Below, piece by piece: positions 11,537 through 20,386 of a stretch of DNA of 64,000 bases. The stretch comes from Acetivibrio sp. MSJd-27 (GTDB lineage Bacteria > Bacillota > Clostridia > UMGS1840 > HGM11507). The notes below the pieces were generated by a model, which saw nothing but the letters and a program-made list of their open reading frames with translations, was not told the DNA's origin and did no database searches. The translations under genes and the position numbers were made by a program. Position 1 is the first letter of the stretch, and every line of letters begins with the position of its first letter. The DNA lies in NCBI RefSeq assembly GCF_018918095.1, contig NZ_JAHLPV010000011.1, positions 1 through 64,000 of the forward strand. The letters are read 5' to 3'.

Positions 11537-11565
11537 TTGACTTTTGGGCTTCTTAATTGTATAAT
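11537..11565 (+). promoter_or_regulatory. Promoter of the small RHH-type gene
   Basis: TTGACT (11537-11542), 17 bases, TATAAT (11560-11565), about 30 bases before the TTG start at 11597. Confidence 0.85.
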
Positions 11566-11596
11566 TATTATGGGCTTCAAAAGTGAGGTGAATTCA

Positions 11597-11773
11597 TTGC
11601 CTGAAAAAAAGAAATTAGGTCGTCCTACAGATAATCCGAAAGGGACATCGATTCATGTTCGCCTGGATGAAGAGTGCAGAATAACTTTAGAAAAATATTG
11701 TCAGCAAAAGAATGTCACTAAAATGGAGGCAACGAGACGAGGTATCAAAAAACTGAAGGAAGATCTAAATTAA
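11597..11773 (+). CDS. Small ribbon-helix-helix-like protein
   Basis: A 58-residue basic protein from a TTG start with GAGGTG 6 bases upstream. It begins PEKKKLGRPTDNPKGT, an AT-hook-like GRP turn. It continues with the ribbon-helix-helix pattern IHVRLDEECRITLEKYCQQ and ends in MEATRRGIKKLKEDL. That is the pattern of CopG/Arc-type DNA-binding proteins or antitoxins. It has a strong promoter of its own and is followed immediately by a set of hairpins. No toxin-like partner gene is adjacent. Confidence 0.8.
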   Translation: MPEKKKLGRPTDNPKGTSIHVRLDEECRITLEKYCQQKNVTKMEATRRGIKKLKEDLN

Positions 11774-11848
11774 AAAGGAAGTCCGGCTTTCCCGACCAAA
11801 GCAAATCCGAACTTCCCCAACTCGCACCTTCTGCAAAAGCAGAGATAC
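11771..11848 (-). ncRNA. Candidate small RNA convergent with the RHH gene
   Basis: On the minus strand a promoter (TTGAAA 11878-11883, 17 bases, TATAGT 11855-11860) would start a transcript near 11848. The transcript would contain a TCTGC/GCAGA hairpin. It ends in a 10-bp stem (GGAAGTTCGG with CCGGACTTCC, one G-U pair; 11777-11816) followed by five T. Predicted length is about 75-80 nt. No reading frame is apparent. The existence of this RNA is inferred from signals only. Confidence 0.5.
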
Positions 11849-11880
11849 ATAAATACTATACCATATGTATCTTTCTCTTT
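11843..11880 (+). terminator. Probable terminator of the RHH transcript
   Basis: AGATACAT (11843-11850) pairs with ATGTATCT (11865-11872) and is followed by TTCTCTTT. It is the third of three hairpins behind the RHH gene. Confidence 0.5.
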
Positions 11881-11883
11881 CAA
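11855..11883 (-). promoter_or_regulatory. Promoter of the candidate small RNA
   Basis: TTGAAA (11878-11883), a 17-base spacer, TATAGT (11855-11860) on the minus strand; its -10 lies in the loop of the plus-strand hairpin at 11843-11872. Confidence 0.55.
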
Positions 11884-11919
11884 GCAGTTTGTGCGTAATT
11901 TGAAAGGATGAAAGAAAAA

Positions 11920-12183
11920 ATGGACATTTTAAAAAAGCTATTTTTGGGTGAAATCTCCCCTATTGAACAGCTTCGACCTCAGACTACGGAATACGATGGT
12001 TATGCACAGAAGTATTTTCAATATGAAAAACAGTTTTACAGTCGGCTGGACGAAGAATCAAAAAAACAGTTTCAAGAACTTTTCGAGCTGGAAAGCCAAA
12101 TGGAACTAGAAGAATTTTCCCTGTGCTTCTGCCGCGGTTTTAAGCTGGGGATCCAACTTATGCTGGCGGCAATGGAAACATAG
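11920..12183 (+). CDS. DUF6809 family protein
   Basis: An 87-residue, acidic, helical cytoplasmic protein. It shows the family layout: an N-terminal ILKKLFLGEISPIEQ, a middle amphipathic helix with YEKQFYSRLDEESKK, and a C-terminal CFCRGFKLGIQLMLAAM. Function is unknown. Start is ATG 11920 with AAAGGA 11 bases upstream; the ATG at 11908 overlaps the ribosome site itself. In Clostridia these genes often sit beside small RHH genes, as here. Confidence 0.75.
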   Translation: MDILKKLFLGEISPIEQLRPQTTEYDGYAQKYFQYEKQFYSRLDEESKKQFQELFELESQMELEEFSLCFCRGFKLGIQLMLAAMET

Positions 12184-18146: not shown

Positions 18147-19049
18147 TCAGATATATTTTAAATAAGTCGTCAGCATCTCAGACATAACACGCAGCTTTCC
18201 CTGAAATAGCAGAGCATACTCGGCCGCAAAGAAATAACCGCACCGGTCACACAAACCGGGTATGTCAATACATCTTCCGCAAACCGACAGTCTACCGTTC
18301 TCCATAACAACACATTGGGCGCAGGGGGTCGGAAACGAGTTATGGATCAGATAAGAAAAAGCGCTCTCTAGATTAAATACCGGATACCCCTGCCGTTTCA
18401 GTTTTCCGATGACACGGCAACATTGCTCTTTTTCCGCTTCGTTCAGATACAAGGTCTCCGTCCCCGGATACGGAGTATGAAAATTAAAAGAGACTGCCCG
18501 CACCTTCTCCTTTTCTTTTGCAATCTGACATACCCTTTCAACGGTATCTTTGTTTATTTGATTGATCGCCATATAGAGGCAGATATTATTGCCGGGTGAT
18601 CGATCAATGTTCTCCATAATGGTGTCAAAGGTATCTCCGCGGATTTGATTGTGCCGTTGCCTATCGCCGTCAAGGCTTAAAAGAATCAGATCTGCCTTTG
18701 GCAATTCGAGGGGGAAAGTTCCATTGGTTACCGTATTTACAATCAGGAAACCCATCTGCTTCGCCTCTTTGACCAAATCCCGAAGCGTTTTCCCGCCGTC
18801 CTCCCACAGGAAGGTTTCGCCGCCGCAGAAAAAGAGTATCCGGATTCCCATCTGGTACAGTGTTTTCATCTCTCTTCGAATCTGCTCATACGGATAAATA
18901 ACCGCTGTGATATTGTTGACGGCACAGTGCTTACAGGACAGATTGCATTTATCCGTCAGTATGATGGTTCCCAAAATGGGATCTTTTTTGTGAAACAAAA
19001 TGGTTTTCAAACCAAATGCAGAAAAATAGAACAGAGAAGATCGTTTCAT
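18147..19049 (-). CDS. Radical SAM protein with C-terminal cysteine cluster (SPASM-like)
   Basis: A 300-residue protein. CNLSCKHC (about residues 35-42) is the CxxxCxxC cluster site, FFCGGETFL is the GGE motif, and LLSLDGDRQRHNQIRG and NFHTPYPG are further barrel strands. The C-terminus has closely spaced cysteines (CAQC, CGRC, CDRCG) that suit one or two auxiliary Fe-S clusters as in SPASM enzymes. Substrate unknown; no small peptide substrate gene was seen nearby. AAGGAG precedes the ATG. Its 5' third lies inside the duplicated segment, but this copy is complete. Confidence 0.85.
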   Translation of the reverse strand: MKRSSLFYFSAFGLKTILFHKKDPILGTIILTDKCNLSCKHCAVNNITAVIYPYEQIRREMKTLYQMGIRILFFCGGETFLWEDGGKTLRDLVKEAKQMGFLIVNTVTNGTFPLELPKADLILLSLDGDRQRHNQIRGDTFDTIMENIDRSPGNNICLYMAINQINKDTVERVCQIAKEKEKVRAVSFNFHTPYPGTETLYLNEAEKEQCCRVIGKLKRQGYPVFNLESAFSYLIHNSFPTPCAQCVVMENGRLSVCGRCIDIPGLCDRCGYFFAAEYALLFQGKLRVMSEMLTTYLKYI

Positions 19050-19555
19050 TTTTTCTCCTTTTTGCGAAATTGCTCCATATAAAATGTTTTCAAATATTGC
19101 TTTACAATTTCATCGCCAGTCTTCTATTTCAGGACAGAAACTCCATCCCCTCGCTTTTACACACGCTAATATGACATCACATTTCAATTTTTATCTTATT
19201 CCTTTACAACGTTTTCACATTCTTCTGCCCCAGCAGGCTCTCCAGAATGCCGACAAGGGTATCATCCCTTCTCACCCAGAGGGATTTCTCCGCCATGGTC
19301 TTCTGGTTCTTCTCCGCAAAATAGACATAGACAGGAATATTGCCGTGATATGCTTTCAGCGTCTCCTTCACCTGCGGAAGTGCCGCCTGGTTCTCTCCGG
19401 TGATTTTCAAATACAGACGGTTAAAGCCCTCCTGGTATTCATAGATGGAATCCAGATAGATACAAGCGTCCTCATCCTCCCGCTTGGAAACGCCGCCGTC
19501 CACTTCGACTACCAGACCATCCCGCAGCTGATGGGAGAACTGTTCAAATTTCTGT
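18725..19555. repeat. Tandem duplication, copy 1 (831 bp)
   Basis: This 831-base unit recurs directly behind itself, with no difference seen by eye. It contains the 5' 325 bases of the radical-SAM gene, the 154-base space to dnaE, and the last 352 bases of dnaE. Flanks diverge at once outside the unit. The junction shares a single base, so no long homology was needed. Confidence 0.95.
19204..19555 (-). pseudogene. Duplicated 3' end of dnaE
   Basis: The last 117 codons of DnaE repeat here (from KFEQFSHQLRDGL to the stop), broken at 19555. The frame continues upstream into antisense radical-SAM sequence up to 19638, giving a 144-codon chimera with no ribosome site. Produced by the 831-bp tandem duplication. 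Confidence 0.9.
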
Positions 19556-19880
19556 TGGTTACCGTATTTACAATCAGGAAACCCATCTGCTTCGCCTCTT
19601 TGACCAAATCCCGAAGCGTTTTCCCGCCGTCCTCCCACAGGAAGGTTTCGCCGCCGCAGAAAAAGAGTATCCGGATTCCCATCTGGTACAGTGTTTTCAT
19701 CTCTCTTCGAATCTGCTCATACGGATAAATAACCGCTGTGATATTGTTGACGGCACAGTGCTTACAGGACAGATTGCATTTATCCGTCAGTATGATGGTT
19801 CCCAAAATGGGATCTTTTTTGTGAAACAAAATGGTTTTCAAACCAAATGCAGAAAAATAGAACAGAGAAGATCGTTTCAT
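19556..19880 (-). pseudogene. Duplicated 5' end of the radical SAM gene
   Basis: The first 108 codons of the radical-SAM gene, with its ribosome site and the CNLSCKHC cluster motif, repeat here. After the junction the frame runs 15 codons into foreign sequence and stops at 19509. The fragment lacks most of the barrel and should be inactive, although its transcription and translation signals are intact. Confidence 0.9.
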
Positions 19881-20386
19881 TTTTTCTCCTTTTTGCGAAA
19901 TTGCTCCATATAAAATGTTTTCAAATATTGCTTTACAATTTCATCGCCAGTCTTCTATTTCAGGACAGAAACTCCATCCCCTCGCTTTTACACACGCTAA
20001 TATGACATCACATTTCAATTTTTATCTTATTCCTTTACAACGTTTTCACATTCTTCTGCCCCAGCAGGCTCTCCAGAATGCCGACAAGGGTATCATCCCT
20101 TCTCACCCAGAGGGATTTCTCCGCCATGGTCTTCTGGTTCTTCTCCGCAAAATAGACATAGACAGGAATATTGCCGTGATATGCTTTCAGCGTCTCCTTC
20201 ACCTGCGGAAGTGCCGCCTGGTTCTCTCCGGTGATTTTCAAATACAGACGGTTAAAGCCCTCCTGGTATTCATAGATGGAATCCAGATAGATACAAGCGT
20301 CCTCATCCTCCCGCTTGGAAACGCCGCCGTCCACTTCGACTACCAGACCATCCCGCAGCTGATGGGAGAACTGTTCAAATTTCTGT
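19556..20386. repeat. Tandem duplication, copy 2 (831 bp)
   Basis: Second copy of the unit at 18725-19555. The dnaE end in this copy joins the complete dnaE gene, while the radical-SAM 5' end in it is orphaned. Confidence 0.95.

Follow-up and report, generated by a model that had tools for sequence, protein, structure and literature searches.

Three described systems come closest to the locus studied here. On the plasmid pMV158, copG, RNAII and repB are arranged in one operon, in which CopG is a ribbon-helix-helix (RHH) autorepressor and RNAII a convergent antisense RNA (PMC5703833). On the staphylococcal plasmid pSK41, an antisense RNA of ∼83 nt (RNAI) encoded upstream of the rep start region base-pairs with the leader and, acting from a distance, sequesters the ribosome site (PMC5703833). 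In the immI region of phage P22 the annotated order is arc, sar and ant: arc encodes an RHH autorepressor, the terminator of the antisense RNA sar starts at the arc stop codon and the next gene is controlled post-transcriptionally (PMC12197685).

We analyzed 64 000 nt of the genome of Acetivibrio sp. MSJd-27 (contig NZ_JAHLPV010000011.1, positions 1 to 64 000, in the following ‘the window’), where a small RHH gene is followed by a structured stretch and a DUF6809 gene. The features of the locus are listed below.

11537–11565, plus strand: promoter of the RHH gene, TTGACT-17-TATAAT, 11/12 consensus positions
11540–11584, plus strand: candidate RHH operator, GGGCTTC at 11546–11552 and 11572–11578 within the inverted ends ACTTTTG...CAAAAGT
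11597–11773, plus strand: RHH (CopG-like) repressor gene with a GRPTDNPK motif, open reading frame with TTG start, 58 aa
11771–11848, minus strand: predicted antisense RNA of ∼77 nt, start at about 11848, from promoter and terminator geometry
11772–11816, minus strand: predicted antisense terminator, hairpin 1 (11777–11816) plus U-run (11772–11776), from U-run conservation and covariation
11823–11834, plus strand: 5′ arm of the long-range stem P0 (CGCAC + CUGC), within the target of the antisense RNA, from cognate versus swapped pairing (z −15.0)
11830–11843, plus strand: hairpin 2 of the mRNA leader, from folding, own-versus-swapped arm pairing and covariation
11844–11871, plus strand: hairpin 3 of the mRNA leader, from the same three lines of evidence
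11855–11883, minus strand (read 11883–11855): antisense promoter, TTGAAA-17-TATAGT with extended −10, 10/12 consensus positions
11869–11882, plus strand: anti-Shine-Dalgarno (anti-SD), overlapping the antisense −35 and pairing with the Shine-Dalgarno (SD) region (−11.2 kcal/mol)
11884–11895, plus strand: 3′ arm of P0 (GCAG + GUGCG), from cognate versus swapped pairing
11900–11917 (about), plus strand: SD region of the DUF6809 gene, from sequence and pairing
11920–12183, plus strand: DUF6809 protein gene, 87 aa, putative controlled gene (PF20648, E 4.3e-19)

Although a sequence-only reading of this DNA had known of no named system with such a layout, P22 arc-sar-ant and pMV158 copG-RNAII-repB (PMC5703833) share it. 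The arc-sar-ant order, i.e. a repressor gene, a convergent predicted antisense RNA ending at the repressor stop and a gene downstream, was also found at the homologous loci; the −10 of Psar lies 77 nt from the arc stop, compared with mostly 79–85 nt at these loci. However, Psar is located inside ant and sar spans the ant start region, whereas in the window cassette the antisense promoter precedes the SD and a proposed leader switch would exert the control. Furthermore, the controlled gene of P22 is an antirepressor, while the window cassette would control DUF6809 and is of a type that occurs stand-alone and in multiple copies on the chromosome. pMV158 likewise combines an RHH autorepressor, a convergent antisense RNA and a downstream gene, and CopG ranks with the best structural matches of the window RHH protein, but RNAII is only 48 nt long and starts inside repB, and the window cassette comes without a replication gene. 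No replication initiator was found among the downstream genes of the element loci, and a protein search yielded no plasmid relatives of the cassette. pSK41 is alike in its leader-acting antisense RNA and its sequestered ribosome site; it differs in sequence, in the missing RHH gene and in controlling a replication initiator. The Rfam covariance model of sar (RF00262) scored the P22 control with 97.8 bits and had no match in any RHH-element locus tested. Because the model finds P22 but none of these loci, the cassette is not a member of the sar family; it appears to work like arc-sar-ant and to be homologous to cassettes of Firmicutes and Fusobacteria phages.

The 58-codon gene matches a transcriptional repressor family (phrog_876, E 1.4e-12) and, in a profile search, the chain 2kel_A (E 0.0026). 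Its structural model, which has an N-terminus of low confidence, superposes on ORF56, CopG and Arc with TM-scores by target of about 0.6–0.8 and probabilities up to 0.99; the best E-value was 0.2 and no PDB match fell below it. By model and profile the product is a predicted repressor of the RHH fold. As the sequence-only reading had proposed, the gene stands under a near-consensus promoter. The candidate operator repeats flank the −10 of this promoter. The window's own repeat is short; inverted repeats with at least 10/12 matching positions occur at the operator place in 68% of 87 homologous RHH promoters versus 12% of shuffles, a contrast that may be inflated as the shuffles do not keep the conserved promoter and SD words. 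The arrangement is consistent with an RHH protein that autorepresses its own promoter via the overlapping repeats.

An antisense promoter facing the gene and a hairpin plus five T ending an RNA of 75–80 nt had likewise been read from the letters, and both were recovered across homologous loci. A promoter of at least 10/12 within 160 nt past the RHH stop was found on the minus strand in 61 of 78 scorable loci (78%); the corresponding shares are 2.3% for dinucleotide shuffles and 5.4% for 463 control gene ends, and on the plus strand the same stretch carries one in 1 of 78 loci. Where present, the antisense −10 lies mostly 79–85 nt from the RHH stop and has a 17-nt spacer and an extended TG. The plus-strand A5 at 11772–11776 reads as U5 behind hairpin 1 from the minus strand, and a U-run of at least 5 in 8 behind this hairpin is seen on the minus strand in 97% of 72 loci and on the plus strand in 0%. 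Over these 72 loci the predicted RNA has a median length of 74 nt, with the middle 80% between 72 and 76 nt. The promoter and terminator positions support an antisense RNA gene of ∼75 nt that converges on the RHH gene end. This geometry also bears on the view that only a cis-acting structure of the plus strand is conserved and that the apparent antisense promoter arises incidentally from AT-rich loop and anti-SD sequences: the antisense −10 does fall within the loop of hairpin 3 and the −35 within the anti-SD, but a plus-strand structure needs no extended −10, 17-nt spacing, near-fixed distance or one-sided U-run, and we regard this view as very improbable.

The hairpin stretch of the plus strand folds more stably than shuffles (z −4.4, with 0 of 200 shuffles as stable). 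The three hairpins described from the sequence alone were placed correctly within a base or two, but hairpin 1 is interrupted by internal mismatches and is not the clean 10-bp stem that had been claimed. With the helices of hairpins 1–3 set by hand on alignment A3, a double change was found in all 19 of 19 pairs, and 107 doubly changed cells were counted versus 32.6 in shuffles; these measures collapsed in controls with slid partners. In an alignment-free comparison of own versus swapped arms, z-scores of −11.3, −6.7, −13.3 and −15.0 were obtained for hairpins 1, 2, 3 and P0, respectively, and of −6.9 for anti-SD:SD pairing (47 loci); in none of these tests did any of 5000 permutations do as well, and a control pairing gave −2.1. 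The scores assume independent loci although the loci are related, and swaps among relatives reduce the contrast, so their direction can be trusted but not their size. As the 3′ halves of hairpin 3 and P0 lie upstream of the antisense start, outside the antisense RNA, covariation there concerns the plus-strand mRNA; both strands, the mRNA leader included, are thus under selection. The RNA element downstream of the RHH gene matched no Rfam family; it represents an RNA family that Rfam lacks and that covaries strongly on both strands.

The 3′ arm of P0 is located in the loop that anti-SD:SD pairing closes. When the antisense target was blocked in silico at 47 loci, mean openness of the SD fell from 0.51 to 0.24 (lower in 34 loci, higher in 6) and anti-SD:SD pairs rose from 2.3 to 9.4. 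At the window locus SD openness changed only from 0.47 to 0.36, with anti-SD:SD pairing rising from 1.7 to 13.8 bp. A pseudoknot of P0 and anti-SD:SD is beyond what nested energy folding can show, and blocking any competitor region tends by construction to favor the remaining pairing, so the direction of the switch that we infer could be reversed.

A scan of GTDB genomes with four RHH paralogues as query, an alignment of all paralogues being too diverse, yielded 80 loci with related RHH genes. Most of them show the same sequence plan behind the RHH stop, in Clostridia and also in Paenibacillus (L084, L100); no element was detectable at half of these 80 genes. Cultured carriers include Sporobacter termitidis and Clostridium methylpentosum. 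The structured stretch behind the RHH gene represents a copy of an RNA element whose conservation over more than 70 homologous loci puts it far beyond chance; the promoter and every helix recur beside homologous RHH genes. The source genome contains seven RHH paralogues and nine strong element copies: behind all seven genes the element immediately follows the stop codon, and the other two copies sit behind RHH remnants (L127, L129). For searches with a covariance model we used the hand-set model R2 instead of the automatic model R1, which held only 12 pairs, and discounted matches below about 40 bits (e.g. L148, L150, L151) except L146, L147 and L162, which were read individually. In 291 sampled genomes of the class, an intact RHH gene directly precedes 34 of the 38 elements that score 60 bits or more and 5 of the 6 that score 40–60 bits. 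Taken together, 39 of the 44 elements of at least 40 bits have this neighbour, and the five exceptions are three behind RHH remnants (L127, L129, L158), one near a contig edge (L160) and G281:C12:273433. At L158, L129 and L127 the RHH gene is broken and the RNA element still recognizable; the downstream gene is intact at L158 and L129, which suggests that the antisense part may function even where the repressor is lost. At L146 (G061:C44:23432–23584), an element match of 37.6 bits, an HTH_17 protein (1336–1497) encoded upstream replaces the RHH protein, a possible repressor swap of helix-turn-helix for RHH.

The product of 11920–12183 matches DUF6809 (PF20648) with 69.6 bits, above the gathering score of 27. 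Of 48 genes downstream of the element, 24 match DUF6809; the remaining ones belong to a few unnamed small families or to a second RHH cassette in tandem. The downstream proteins mostly have ∼90–100 aa, and the start codon is mostly found 33–60 nt past the conserved CAA of the element. The modelled DUF6809 structure is helical and had no match in a PDB search, and we found neither a paper on DUF6809 nor a description of an RHH-antisense-DUF6809 cassette in the open-licence literature. DUF6809 genes are also common outside the cassette, as about 18 of roughly 105 matches sit behind a detected element; the 18 of 19 seen behind the element in one list are not a rate, since that list was preselected for element-bearing contigs. 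Three DUF6809 genes without cassette lie directly behind TnpV (L181, L182) or MobC (L178), which indicates that mobile elements can carry DUF6809 as cargo. RHH-antisense cassettes in tandem, with no separate downstream gene between them, were seen at L005-L004 (G000:C10), L052, L057, L080 and L099.

It had been suggested that the antisense RNA regulates the RHH mRNA or is bound by the RHH protein. Because of the leader covariation, the SD pairing and the conserved downstream gene, the likely target is instead the next gene, DUF6809. Binding of the hairpins by the RHH protein would agree with the strict adjacency of gene and element; however, the operator-like repeats in the RHH promoter account for the protein without RNA binding and the covariation of the helices tracks base pairing rather than a fixed binding site for a protein, which leaves such a protein–RNA module with hardly any probability. 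We consider it probable that the locus is a dual-control cassette with the layout of arc-sar-ant and copG-RNAII-repB, in which an RHH autorepressor is combined with an antisense RNA controlling DUF6809 translation. The anatomy of the genes and the element, their conservation and covariation, the association of the two, the genes downstream and the relatives in phages are findings of this analysis; transcription, repression and the direction of the switch are inferred as follows. One mRNA would carry the RHH gene followed by the DUF6809 gene, and the RHH protein would repress the promoter of this mRNA through the overlapping repeats. In the free leader P0, which would compete with anti-SD:SD pairing, would form and leave the SD more open. 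Once transcribed from the opposite strand of the intergenic stretch, the ∼75-nt antisense RNA would pair with the leader and block P0; the anti-SD would then pair with the SD and DUF6809 translation would drop.

The same cassette could also act by premature termination of the mRNA, as antisense-induced attenuation is the known mode of pT181 and pIP501 (PMC5703833). A plus-strand T-run behind hairpin 1 was found in 0 of 72 loci, however, and covariation links the leader to the SD, so that we judge attenuation in place of SD sequestration unlikely. A toxin–antitoxin module, with the downstream protein as toxin and RHH protein and antisense RNA as two antitoxins, seems equally improbable: a small gene under tight double control would suit it and antitoxins often have RHH folds, but no toxin–antitoxin or defence model convincingly matches the downstream proteins, and the slot is filled by several unrelated small families. 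Moreover, some RHH and RNA cassettes precede another RHH cassette and not a downstream gene, and L129 and L158 keep element and downstream gene although the RHH gene is broken. With dual control, DUF6809 would gain a testable role as a gene whose output is held down by two independent repressors.

The DUF6809 protein would occupy the slot held by the antirepressor in phage relatives. Among 18 loci on phage contigs that have related RHH genes, 10 show weak element matches (17–36 bits) exactly at the RHH stop, and 8 of these 10 have an antisense promoter of at least 10/12. These clostridial and fusobacterial phage cassettes (phrog_876) thus share the homologous RHH gene, the antisense promoter and the weak match with the window, but differ in what lies downstream: in several an antirepressor of the ORF6N, Bro-N, Rha/ORF6C or KilAC type comes next, and Fusobacterium phage phiFN37 has the same layout with Rha as second gene. 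At the chromosomal cassettes no antirepressor was found downstream, but DUF6809 and other small families. Logic of the arc-sar-ant type, classic from a single Salmonella phage and from certain plasmids, would thereby extend to Firmicutes phages and to multicopy chromosomal cassettes, scattered in a bacterial genome, beside DUF6809. The copies are patchy (three genomes of the same family that were searched have neither RHH gene nor element, two distant genomes have ten elements each), as expected for mobile cassettes. A tentative and rather doubtful extension is that phage-immunity cassettes were domesticated or spread in Clostridia as stand-alone chromosomal elements with up to ten copies in a genome, every copy having a repressor, an operator and an antisense RNA specificity of its own, and that DUF6809-type proteins are a new class of antirepressor-like effectors controlling mobile elements. 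A phage contig bearing an RHH/antisense cassette also contains an int-alpA RNA (RF02996, L115 772–839). In a prophage-like region (L147 / L164 4492–6150, G099:C2) a weak element match of 30.8 bits lies between a Bro-N gene before and a large serine recombinase after it, and an RHH copy with a weak element is found 12 kb off (L162). Elsewhere in the window (18147–19913), a radical-SAM-like open reading frame (18147–19049) is partly repeated at 19509–19880 with the same flanking frames, which represents either a partial duplication in tandem (about 830 bp) or an artefact of the assembly.
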